Shown here one piece after another: positions 19,055 to 22,112 of a stretch of 22,112 bases of DNA. The stretch comes from a virus. Below the pieces are notes generated by a model, which was not told the origin of the DNA, searched no databases, and saw nothing but the letters and a program-made list of their open reading frames with translations. How positions within the stretch are numbered: the first letter of the stretch is position 1; the number at the start of each line of letters is the position of its first letter. The stretch spans positions 1-22,112 of the IMG/VR virus record IMGVR_UViG_3300044623_000302, one strand, 5' to 3'. The position numbers were made by a program, and so were the translations under genes.

Positions 19055-19284
19055 TGGAAGGTTTCGTTAAAATACAAAACAAGGATGGTCTTATAAGAGA
19101 TCTATCCAGTGGTGCAGTGATAAATACAAATAGAACAGATCGTGAAAACTATTTGCAAAAAAGAAATGCAGCTAAAGAATTGAATCAACAAATTAAACAA
19201 AACGCTGATAAAATTGAAAAGATTGAGTCAGATGTAACAGAGATAAAAGAGATGCTCGCAATGCTTATTAAGGGTAAACAATAA
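19054..19284 (+). CDS. Small coiled-coil protein (76 aa)
   Basis: I do not recognise a named family. The first 25 residues (FVKIQNKDGLIRDLSSGAVI) look like a short beta segment. Residues about 28-72 are strongly helical and charged, with a heptad-like pattern in 'LNQQIKQNADKIEKIESDVT' then 'EIKEMLAMLI', so a coiled-coil oligomer is likely. It has TAATG overlaps at both ends, joined to the 2216-residue protein and the fibre gene. A role as an adaptor or trimerisation/assembly factor for the fibre is inferred from position only. Confidence 0.8.
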   Translation: MEGFVKIQNKDGLIRDLSSGAVINTNRTDRENYLQKRNAAKELNQQIKQNADKIEKIESDVTEIKEMLAMLIKGKQ

Positions 19285-20498
19285 TGGCAACAATCGTACT
19301 TCGCAGTGTAAAAGGCAGTCCGCTAACGATTGCAGAGGCAGACGCTAACTTTGATAACTTGAACACTGAGGTTGGAACAAAACTAGCAACAGCTACATAT
19401 ACTGCTTCAGATGTTCTTACAAAAATTAAAACAGTTGATGGGACAGGTTCTGGTTTAGATGCAGACTTACTGGATGGTTTGAATACTAGTGTCAATGATA
19501 CTAGTGGAAATTCTGTTGTCATTAGATCTTCTGGTAATTTTTCGGCAAATATTATTACTGCCAATTTAGTTGGTGCTGTTACTGGTAATGTTACTGGTAA
19601 CCTAACTGGAACTGTTACTGGTAATGCAACCAATGTTAGTGGTGTTGTGGCAATTAATAATGGTGGTACTGGTGCTACAACTGAGTCTGCAGCTAGAACT
19701 GCGCTCGGTTTAGGAACTATGGCTACGCAAGCTGCAAATAATGTTACTATTACTGGCGGATCTGTAACTCTAACGACTGCATTGGCAATTGCCTCTGGTG
19801 GTACTGCAGCTACATCGACAACACAAGCAAGAACAAACTTAGGTTTAGTTATTGGTTCTGACATTCAACCATTCTCTAATAATCTAACAGCACTCGCTGC
19901 AGTAACTACTCATGGCTTCTTTGTTAAAGATTCTGCAGGTACAGCACTAACAAGAAGTATTGCAGCTGGATTTAATATGTCTATTAGTAATGGAGATGGA
20001 GTTTCTGGAAACCCAACTATTAACATGTCTTCAACTCCAACTGTAGATTACATTGTTAAACAAGGTGCTAACGGATCTGGTGACATTGGACAATCTGCGA
20101 ATAGATTCGCTGTTATTTACGGTACGAGCACTTCTGCTCGCTACGCTGACTTGGCAGAAAAATATACAACTGATCAAGAATATGAAACAGGAACTGTTAT
20201 TACAGTATCGTTAGACTCTTCTGCAGAAGGTACTGCTTCTTTTAAATATGCTCAAAGAGTTCTTGGTGTTGTTTCTGCCAAACCTGCATTTATTATGAAT
20301 GATGAAGCAGAAGGACAGGCATTGGCACTTCGTGGTCGTGTTCCAGTTAAAGTTGCTGGTCCGATCAACAAAGGACAACCTCTTGTTGCAAATCAAGATG
20401 GTCGTGCCATTGCTGGAGATCATCCAAATAGTTTTGCCATTGCTCTTGAAACTAATTTAGATCCTAATGTAAAACTTGTTGAATGTGTGATTTTATAA
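19284..20498 (+). CDS. Short tail fibre protein
   Basis: Likely trimeric tail fibre or tail-tip adhesin (404 residues). The N-terminus 'MATIVLRSVKGSPLTIAEAD' then 'ANFDNLNTEV' is the baseplate-attachment type found at the start of many T4-like and cyanophage fibres. It is followed by 'GSGLDADLLDGL'. Residues about 99-114 are four tandem V-T-G-N units, and residues about 125-195 contain two fibre repeats with 'NNGGTGATTESAARTALGLG' and 'ASGGTAATSTTQARTNLGLV'. The C-terminal domain, from about residue 286 (RYADLAEKYTTDQEYETGTV), continues with 'VLGVVSAKPAFIMN' and 'LRGRVPVKVAGPINKGQPLV'. This recurring phage fibre end domain is reminiscent of the G2-type autoproteolytic end domain. Whether it cleaves itself cannot be judged here. 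The radical SAM gene follows seven bases later. Confidence 0.85.
   Translation: MATIVLRSVKGSPLTIAEADANFDNLNTEVGTKLATATYTASDVLTKIKTVDGTGSGLDADLLDGLNTSVNDTSGNSVVIRSSGNFSANIITANLVGAVTGNVTGNLTGTVTGNATNVSGVVAINNGGTGATTESAARTALGLGTMATQAANNVTITGGSVTLTTALAIASGGTAATSTTQARTNLGLVIGSDIQPFSNNLTALAAVTTHGFFVKDSAGTALTRSIAAGFNMSISNGDGVSGNPTINMSSTPTVDYIVKQGANGSGDIGQSANRFAVIYGTSTSARYADLAEKYTTDQEYETGTVITVSLDSSAEGTASFKYAQRVLGVVSAKPAFIMNDEAEGQALALRGRVPVKVAGPINKGQPLVANQDGRAIAGDHPNSFAIALETNLDPNVKLVECVIL
19578..19625 (+). repeat. Four tandem 12-base repeats in the fibre gene
   Basis: Units are GTTACTGGTAAT, GTTACTGGTAAC, CTAACTGGAACT and GTTACTGGTAAT, encoding VTGN, VTGN, LTGT and VTGN. The frame is preserved, so changes in copy number would lengthen or shorten the fibre shaft by four residues. 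Confidence 0.8.
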
Positions 20499-20504
20499 TG
20501 CTTT

Positions 20505-21584
20505 ATGACATCTCAACCAATCGTCTTTCATAAGACAAATGTATCTCTTTCAGATATACTAATCCCAAAAGACTTAGTGGTCTATCTTAAGACCACTGAG
20601 ACTTGCCAATTAAATTGCCAACACTGTTTTACTAATGGTGTCAACGGCAAGAAGATATACTTTAATCCCCAGAATACTGTAGAGTGGTTTGAACGACTCC
20701 ACGAGGAATGCCCAACTTTTAATGGTGGGAACATTACATTTCATGGAGGAGAACCATTCCTTGCTCCTCTAGATGACATGTACTATGTTTGGGATAAAGT
20801 ATCTAAGTTATTCCCAAATCTTAACTGGTCGTGTTCTACTAATCTCTGCTTCAATCTAACAGAAGACCACATGGAGTTTTTCAGAACTGTTCTAAAGAAT
20901 GGATTCTGCACTTCATGGGATAAGGGTATTCGTTTTGAGAATGATAAACAAGAAAAACTCTGGCGAAAGAATCTACAAACTGTAGTAGATGCTGGATTTA
21001 ATATCACACTGAATATTAGTCTAAACAAACAACTCTTAGAAATGGATACCACAGAGTTAGTTCTCTGGCTCAATACTCTGGGTGTTAATTGGGTACAGTT
21101 TGAACGACTAACCCATGATGGTTCGGCTCTGGAAAACACTCATATTTTTCCTAGAAATAAAGATCAAGATGACTGGTTCGTTAGAATGCATGAAACCTAT
21201 CAGACAATAAAACCTAAATATAAAGATGTCCTCTTAGAGGGTGTGTATTCCTCTATAACTAAAGGGATACATGGTGGAGTTAGATGCAGAGATTGTGAGC
21301 AGAAAATTTTCACAATCAATGCCGATGGAACTGTGGCTGGATGTCCAAATGCTGCAGTTGGTAATGGCTTTGGAGATATATCTCAGCCCATTAGAACTCT
21401 ACTCTCCGCCAGAGGAAGAATAAATAACATTACATGCGAGATAGAAAGAGACCCTCGTTGCTATACATGCGATGTATTTGATATCTGTAATAGCGATTGT
21501 CACCAATTAAAGTGGCAAGGAGATATCTGTGCAGCACCGAAAACACTAATGCAAAGGTTAAAGAATGACAACAGCTGGCGATAG
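20505..21584 (+). CDS. Radical SAM/SPASM maturase
   Basis: Radical S-adenosylmethionine enzyme of the SPASM class, 359 residues. The SAM-cleaving 4Fe-4S motif is CQLNCQHC (Cys34, Cys38, Cys41). The SAM-contact motif is GGEP at 81-84. The C-terminal SPASM motif is complete: Cys264-x10-Gly275-x4-Cys280, then Cys319-x2-Cys322-x5-Cys328-x3-Cys332, then Cys342, enough for two auxiliary clusters. Cys261 and Cys311 are extra. SPASM enzymes mostly modify peptides or proteins (sactipeptide thioethers, PqqE, QhpD, HxsB/C, sulfatase maturases). No RiPP recognition element is evident by eye. ATG 20505 is the first in frame after a stop at 20496. It has no clear ribosome site, so translation probably depends on coupling to the fibre gene. 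The 3' end overlaps the next gene by 20 bases. The substrate is most likely that next protein (inference). Confidence 0.93.
   Translation: MTSQPIVFHKTNVSLSDILIPKDLVVYLKTTETCQLNCQHCFTNGVNGKKIYFNPQNTVEWFERLHEECPTFNGGNITFHGGEPFLAPLDDMYYVWDKVSKLFPNLNWSCSTNLCFNLTEDHMEFFRTVLKNGFCTSWDKGIRFENDKQEKLWRKNLQTVVDAGFNITLNISLNKQLLEMDTTELVLWLNTLGVNWVQFERLTHDGSALENTHIFPRNKDQDDWFVRMHETYQTIKPKYKDVLLEGVYSSITKGIHGGVRCRDCEQKIFTINADGTVAGCPNAAVGNGFGDISQPIRTLLSARGRINNITCEIERDPRCYTCDVFDICNSDCHQLKWQGDICAAPKTLMQRLKNDNSWR
21553..21557 (+). promoter_or_regulatory. Ribosome binding site (AAAGG) inside the radical SAM gene, for the overlapping gene
   Basis: AAAGG lies seven bases before the ATG at 21565. With the 20-base overlap it supports this start and translational coupling of the small protein to its presumed maturase. 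Confidence 0.55.
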
Positions 21585-22080
21585 TATAACAAAAGCAAAC
21601 ATCGTTGCTTCAATGGCAGCGTTGTCGAGCACATATAATACTGGTATTGTGTGGGGAACTCACAGTCAACCATTTCAAACAGATATTACTGGTGGTAATG
21701 CTAGTGGTTATTCTCAAACATTAGAAGCGGATATATCAGATACCAATATTACTGCTTCTACCATTACAACAAACTTTAGAGCATATGCTGTATTATTATC
21801 TAGAATTAGAAGTGTTAAATTATTAAAATATTATCAGATTCAAGGTAATGTTAGAGCAAGAACAGATTACAACGAAACAAACATTACTAATTTACAAGAT
21901 AGTTATAAAAAAGATATGACTGGTGGACCAGCTTCTGATAATATTATTGATGCTTCTGATTTAGATGATTTTGTTAGTGCTCTATCAACTGCAATTAATA
22001 ATAATAGAACAGATACTGTTACAATTGAAGAATTTTACTGCCATAGTAATTGTCATGGGTCTTGCCACGGAAGTATTTAA
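21565..22080 (+). CDS. Candidate maturase substrate with C-terminal (Cys-His-x-x)3 tail
   Basis: 171 residues; I do not recognise the family. Residues 1-155 are ordinary phage-like sequence, rich in Ser/Thr/Asn, with amphipathic helices ('FRAYAVLLSRIRSVKLLKYY', 'DASDLDDFVSALSTAINN') and a start 'MTTAGDSITKANIVASMAAL'. The last residues are EEFYCHSNCHGSCHGSI: three Cys-His-x-x units at 159-170 plus a final Ile. All three Cys and three of the four His of the protein lie there. The gene starts 20 bases inside the radical SAM gene and ends in TAATG with the next gene. A long body with a short C-terminal modifiable tail, next to a SPASM enzyme, is the pattern of a RiPP precursor or of a structural protein with a modified end. 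Alternatives are a metal-binding or disulfide-bonded tail needing no enzyme. The gene is certain; the role is inferred. Confidence 0.75.
   Translation: MTTAGDSITKANIVASMAALSSTYNTGIVWGTHSQPFQTDITGGNASGYSQTLEADISDTNITASTITTNFRAYAVLLSRIRSVKLLKYYQIQGNVRARTDYNETNITNLQDSYKKDMTGGPASDNIIDASDLDDFVSALSTAINNNRTDTVTIEEFYCHSNCHGSCHGSI
22047..22076 (+). other. (Cys-His-x-x)3 candidate core region
   Basis: Covers residues 161-170 and most of the repeat set that begins at residue 159 (base 22039). The units read CHSN, CHGS and CHGS. The codons differ between units (TGC CAT, TGT CAT, TGC CAC; GGG TCT against GGA AGT), so the protein repeat is kept while the DNA is not a recent duplication. Confidence 0.6.
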
Positions 22081-22112
22081 TGTACACTATACCATTTGAT
22101 TCTGAAACTTTA
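22080..22112 (+). CDS. Start of the next gene (3' partial)
   Basis: An ATG at 22080 shares TAATG with the stop of the Cys-His-tail protein and reads MYTIPFDSETL to the window edge. Too short to identify. The same stop/start overlap marks six other real gene starts here, which supports it as a genuine start. Confidence 0.55.
   Translation, partial: MYTIPFDSETL

Follow-up and report, generated by a model that had tools for sequence, protein, structure and literature searches.

The window analysed here, a stretch of viral DNA of 22,112 nucleotides, contains an operon of the T4-like tail type, including a tail-lysozyme hub, PAAR, gp25, gp6, and other wedge proteins. After the wedge genes, the operon continues with genes for a 2216-aa protein, a 76-aa protein, and a fibre-like protein of 404 aa, followed by a radical SAM/SPASM enzyme and a protein with a Cys-His (CH) tail (Table 1). 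The record ends about 30 bases past the next start codon, and the residues encoded there match the start of a phrog_20767-family gene in three related loci (L035, L030, and L023). A first-pass annotation had described a complete radical SAM enzyme with full SPASM cysteines, overlapped by 20 bases by a gene whose product has all of its Cys in a C-terminal (CHxx)3 tail, and both ORFs are as described.

Table 1. Features of the enzyme and CH-tailed protein locus in the window.
Feature	Position	Strand	Evidence
404-aa tail-fibre-like protein, directly upstream of the enzyme	19284..20498	+	phrog_22593 1.3e-19 (function unknown); phrog_19602 tail fiber 9.2e-17
Radical SAM/SPASM enzyme gene, 359 aa, proposed tail-modifying enzyme	20505..21584	+	Pfam Fer4_12/Radical_SAM; PHROG 1802 (radical SAM) 2.6e-56; complete SPASM motif
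CxxxCxxC radical SAM cluster motif (C34, C38, C41)	20604..20627	+	Invariant in 20 relatives
SPASM domain cysteines C261-C342, auxiliary Fe-S clusters	21285..21530	+	TIGR04085 SPASM 6.9e-5, below its cut-off
20-base overlap of enzyme gene and putative substrate gene	21565..21584	+	ORFs
171-aa CH-tailed protein, phrog_35144 family, proposed substrate and virion tip protein	21565..22080	+	phrog match; AF2
C-terminal (C-H-x-[SN])3 repeat CHSNCHGSCHGS, proposed modification site	22039..22074	+	Sequence; low AF2 confidence
Start of next cassette gene, phrog_20767 family, cut by window end (22112)	22080..22112	+	MYTIPFDSETL

The enzyme has the cysteine pattern of the radical SAM/SPASM proteins (CxxxCxxC with CX9-15GX4C-CX2CX5CX3C-C). 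The SPASM set is full (C264-x10-G-x4-C280, C319-x2-C322-x5-C328-x3-C332, and C342), and all of these cysteines, together with CxxxCxxC, are invariant across 20 relatives with identities down to 37%. Pfam matches were obtained to Fer4_12 (1.2e-5, above the cut-off) and Radical_SAM (8e-5, below the cut-off), and none of the NCBIfam peptide-maturase cut-offs was reached. The best NCBIfam matches, extending over most of the enzyme, are the darobactin/dynobactin maturases DarE, DarW, and DynA, at 26-33 bits versus cut-offs of 450-650 (DarE, 33.4 of 650 bits; DynA, 26.4 of 450), and the YhhB profile likewise falls short (18.7 of 445 bits). Among the solved structures related by sequence are those of anaerobic sulfatase-maturating enzymes and 5wgg, the thioether enzyme CteB. 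In the phylogenetic tree the enzymes of the phages group together (support 99/99), next to a clade of enzymes from plasmids.

All three Cys of the 171-aa product fall within the C-terminal tail CHSNCHGSCHGSI, and 61 of its 62 relatives match phrog_35144. The AF2 model of the protein (pLDDT 86, pTM 0.78) has its structural matches exclusively among phage proteins, with Atu_ph07 gp170 and one from Myoviridae sp. ctijX18 among them; a PDB fold search with the model returned no match, and thus gave no fold-level support for a trimeric fibre. The repeat tail is modelled at low confidence (pLDDT 54 and 42 for the last blocks). Across the phages, CH-tailed proteins are 130-300 aa long and have three to about a dozen units per tail. 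The largest tails (L367 and L384) are expanded, with blocks separated by VPV or VV spacers. The commonest ending is CHxSCHxSCHxS-RGRR, while the clade of the window instead ends in CHGS-I/L.

It should be noted that the invariance of C and H in pattern-selected tails is partly built in by the selecting regular expression, and for this reason the repeat statistics rest on enzyme-anchored sets. Across 161 units from 45 distinct enzyme-anchored tails, the repeat unit is C-(His, rarely Tyr)-x-(Ser/Asn/Ala). The position after Cys (X1) is His in 156 units, Tyr in 4, and Asn in 1, although in the two leading units of a tail X1 had been preselected as His/Tyr; X2 takes nine residues; and X3, which was free of selection, is Ser (99), Asn (44), or Ala (18) in all 161. 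Among members of the window clade, identity averages 94% over the final 14 residues, compared to 63% for the body. The Cys and His codons of the tails vary synonymously (TGT/TGC, CAT/CAC) while the residues are fixed. The tail protein as a whole is 60-89% identical within the window clade versus 94-99% for the enzyme, and its protein-changing divergence, scaled to the synonymous divergence, exceeds that of the enzyme by a factor of several to about ten, as would be expected for a protein in contact with the host.

The pairing of enzyme and tail is more than local chance. An enzyme-anchored scan covered 72 loci, 14 of which were cut too early to judge, and a CH tail is encoded by the next gene at 55 of the 58 usable phage loci. 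The exceptions are a contig that ends inside the tail gene (L020), a 9.5-kb fragment (L072), and a 151-kb contig on which a tail pair lies ~10 kb from the enzyme, in addition to a normal cassette at another position (L073). When the divergent enzyme of L116 was used as the query, the tail was next door at 27/27 loci. Conversely, a scan with a DNA pattern for the tail identified 120 viral loci, comprising 62 genuine C-terminal tails, 55 chance matches, and 3 internal repeats. The enzyme occurs within the fetched DNA at 49 of the 62 genuine loci and, for most others, elsewhere on the same contig; the remaining tail loci (L102, L123, L162, L181, and L186) are fragments (24-39 kb) or have the tail at a contig edge. 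The enzyme is absent from all 55 chance loci. Each of five large phage genomes has a single match to the (C[HY]xx)3 pattern, located in every case in the gene of the CH-tailed protein, and the reversed pattern has no hits in the same genomes. Campylobacter phage CP220, which is rich in other radical SAM genes (PMC2853527), had no match to the enzyme, and its pattern search yielded three scattered two-unit matches versus one in the reversed control. Among genome contigs, 118 of 120 pattern matches have no tail signature. The proposal that the phage tail operon encodes an enzyme together with its substrate is therefore supported by both enzyme-anchored scans; co-occurrence holds wherever there is enough DNA, and a search for tails routinely lacking the enzyme, or for an enzyme tied to another substrate, found neither. 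The accompanying claim that the substrate is encoded next door applies to most loci, but adjacency is not universal because some phages and Vibrio plasmids hold the tail kilobases away.

The gene pair belongs to a larger cassette. Of the 74 loci for which 4 kb or more of DNA beyond the tail gene is available, 72 have phrog_20767 downstream of the tail gene and 67 an LFxxYL protein family, while a cupin gene precedes the enzyme at 73 of 122 loci and is absent there in the window clade (these counts include some loci from the same contig). Further radical SAM genes also occur downstream of the tail gene. The AF2 model of the phrog_20767 partner (pLDDT 85) had no PDB match.

A role for the tail protein at a fibre tip, in line with the virion role first suggested from the position in the tail operon, is further supported by gene fusions. 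In L116 the phrog_35144 domain is followed by four CH units and a Peptidase_S74 domain (Pfam 1.5e-11), placing a fibre-specific domain within the tail-protein family; this is the single S74 fusion seen among the relatives, and the window member is without S74. In L194 a Hint domain (Hom_end_hint 1.3e-16) begins immediately after four CH units, and in L121 the repeat precedes a Hint-like module with no Pfam match. The enzyme is present at all three loci, where the repeat is internal to a longer ORF rather than C-terminal and sits directly before an autoprocessing module (one S74, two Hint or Hint-like). S74 domains cut themselves off tail fibres, and so the repeat would be left at the tip, as the mature C-terminus. 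Most CH-tailed proteins differ from S74-chaperone tail fibres in that they lack the chaperone and end at the repeat. L055-type loci have an adjacent Gly-rich fibre-like ORF. The published description of Atu_ph07 reports a virion-protein cluster at CDS 170-215 (PMC6102473), of which the CH-tailed gene, CDS 170, is the first gene; the cluster boundary as reported would place CDS 170 in the virion.

The pairing extends beyond phages. The closest plasmid relatives of the enzyme (29% identity) are encoded by Pseudomonas megaplasmids, within a type IV pilus operon, where the enzyme gene is followed by a gene for a 124-aa protein. The N-terminus of this protein has a hydrophobic segment, and in pQBR103 its C-terminus reads CHSACHGACHGACHGARGWR. 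This protein is matched by 129 plasmid records; the FeN3W tail is CYSNCYSNCHGSRGWR, and the variants CYSNCYSNCHGS (L397) and CYTNCHSNCHGS (L402) keep the aromatic-x-Asn/Ser pattern. Vibrio megaplasmids carry a pilus-enzyme cluster with two tail proteins elsewhere on the same plasmid, ending CYTNCHSNCHGSRSWR and CHSNCHTNCHNNCHGSRSWR, whose N-terminal segments are similar to that of the pQBR103 protein; one of the two genes adjoins a thioredoxin-fold gene. In a gammaproteobacterial genome (L401), CYSNCHGNCHGNCHGSRGWR is encoded just downstream of a radical SAM gene. The plasmid pairs were recovered through the enzyme alone, and the plasmid loci share no recognised neighbours with the phage loci other than radical SAM genes. 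The view of the pair as a phage system thus holds for many phages, but not as a phage-only system. In the Pseudomonas (L393, L394, and L396) and Vibrio (L395/L399) megaplasmids, several radical SAM genes follow the type IV pilus operon, with the CH-tailed proteins of L393-L396/L399 next door or in trans.

As read from its sequence, the repeat has the i/i+2 pattern of the three-residue cyclophane RiPPs. The closest parallel is with the triceptides (XncB, OscB, MscB, HaaB, and YhhB), in which SPASM radical SAM enzymes act on aromatic-x-(Asn/Ser/Ala) motifs with i/i+2 spacing and both His and Tyr can be used; the 161 units conform to this motif (with Asn at X1 in one). The system described here differs in that the enzyme is far below the family cut-offs, the cross-link is a prediction, each unit starts with a conserved Cys, and the putative substrate would be a folded virion or exported protein. 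Classical RiPPs have a short precursor and a protease-cut leader, whereas the CH-tailed proteins are 130-300 aa and that of the window is predicted to be folded. The His-Xaa-Ser system (HxsA, HxsB, HxsC, and HxsD), to which the pair had earlier been likened, also has a repeated His-Xaa-Ser core near a radical SAM enzyme, in contrast to CHxS units in a phage or pilus context. The resemblance of the motifs stands, but membership in the system lacks support: the 171-aa protein has no NCBIfam match at E up to 1, to HxsA or any other family, HxsB and HxsC are not among the best 25 of the 39 NCBIfam families matching the enzyme, and no HxsD was seen among the cassette genes examined. Membership in the darobactin/dynobactin and YhhB families was rejected and that in the His-Xaa-Ser system is not supported, as the 171-aa protein or the enzyme misses the curated models. 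The darobactin/dynobactin systems additionally use small antibiotic precursors, while the CH-tailed proteins appear to be structural.

We consider it probable, though well short of assured, that the enzyme and the 171-aa protein constitute a maturation module, in which a protein at the tip of a virion fibre has its exposed tail cross-linked by the enzyme at His/Tyr. For this phage we infer the modification, the type of bond, the location in the virion, and what the tip does. The N-terminal domain, itself folded, would present a flexible C-terminal (C-H-x-S/N)3 tail, each repeat of which would be cross-linked through radical chemistry by the SPASM enzyme encoded just upstream. The likeliest bond would run from the aromatic ring at X1, which is His or in some relatives Tyr, to the C-beta of Ser/Asn/Ala at X3. 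This suggestion draws on the motif and on precedent, as HaaB forms C2(His)-Cb(Ala), YhhB C2(His)- and C3(Tyr)-Cb(Arg), and MscB C4(Phe)-Cb(Ser) bonds, all i to i+2, and dynobactin has a His cross-link at i/i+2 (PMC11002830). The product would be a row of rigid three-residue rings with the Cys between them free or capable of metal binding or disulfide formation. The modified protein would ride on the phage tail, probably at the fibre tip, where the repeat, at the mature C-terminus, would help to contact the host surface. The Cys of the tail is at least as conserved as the His and is not required by a pure His-cyclophane model; it may be a metal ligand, an interchain disulfide, or the true target.

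This last possibility underlies the foremost alternative, in which the enzyme makes Cys thioethers (ranthipeptide/sactipeptide-like) or another Cys modification, with His as a helper or metal ligand. The invariant repeat Cys, which survives the replacement of His by Tyr or Asn, would be explained, and the solved sequence relatives 5wgg (CteB) and the anaerobic sulfatase-maturating enzymes are in keeping with such a chemistry. However, this alternative leaves the restriction of X3 to Ser/Asn/Ala and the interchange of His and Tyr unexplained, and CHxSCHxS is without evident classical thioether acceptor spacing. It is judged unlikely, while retaining a real share of the probability. The original proposal of thioether or other radical crosslinks is therefore modified: the limits on X1 and X3 favour an aromatic i/i+2 bond over thioether as the leading chemistry, while the conserved Cys keeps thioether alive.

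Less probable again, at a low likelihood, is a tail that serves as a metal-binding or disulfide-forming fibre tip while the enzyme acts elsewhere, for example on another cassette protein. Alternating Cys-His could bind Zn, Fe, or Cu, and both the thioredoxin-fold gene beside one Vibrio tail gene and the additional downstream radical SAM genes would be accommodated, but the enzyme tracks the tail even at kilobase distances and in plasmids where radical SAM genes are the only neighbours shared with phages, and Tyr or Asn at X1 is a poor fit to metal binding. A phage RiPP effector, whose tail would be released as a free peptide and attack the host in the way that darobactin targets BamA, is marginally more doubtful; the weak best matches to DarE, DarW, and DynA and the dibasic RGRR ends, as potential cleavage sites, are set against the lack of a recurrent protease among the cassette genes profiled, a putative substrate body that is a 130-300 aa domain encoded in a tail operon, S74/Hint fusions that would expose rather than release the tail, and a window clade without RGRR. 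A chance or low-complexity repeat with no functional link to the enzyme was rejected as very improbable, for while the motif is short and chance CH repeats occur in bacterial contigs, the co-occurrence scans, their controls, and the recurrence in plasmids found via the enzyme alone rule it out.

Should the tip of the virion fibre be cross-linked as proposed, the pair would provide a mechanism and a precise substrate site for radical SAM modification of virion proteins; in the literature searched, no radical SAM enzyme is described as having a virion protein as its target. A broader and more tentative possibility, which we hold to be somewhat doubtful, is that phages and mobile plasmids share an unnamed form of surface-tip capping, in which SPASM enzymes turn the (C-[H/Y]-x-[S/N/A])n tails of fibre and pilus-associated proteins into cross-linked rods that grip or recognise recipient cells. 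If true, this would extend radical SAM modification to both virion and conjugation-related surface proteins. The pair bears on a published open question concerning the pQBR/IncP-2 plasmids, whose type IV pilus genes adjoin a radical SAM cluster with a role described as unclear (PMC13391042). That cluster likewise has a related enzyme followed by an exported CH-tailed protein, and differs in its plasmid pilus operon, the N-terminal signal/TM-like segment, and a tail that ends in RGWR. It may likewise be relevant to the giant phage 332-Vera, the structural cluster of which includes radical SAM genes termed 'highly unusual' (PMC12390700).

Several further observations concern the distribution and company of the genes. 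Tandem pairs of 126-140 aa CH-tailed genes are located kilobases from the enzyme in L102, L123, L135, L138, L159, L177, and L197. The two genome-contig pattern matches with a genuine CH tail (L222 and L313) lie on phage-like contigs binned into archaeal and Rickettsiales MAGs, which are probably phage DNA. A small cupin gene lies directly upstream of the enzyme in L053 (5543-5992) and at most loci outside the window clade. Additional conserved radical SAM enzymes are present in cassettes L035:10160-13055 (one of them B12-binding), L090:11491-16968, and L086:11743-15156, and 2OG-Fe oxygenases sit in the same cassettes of some phages.
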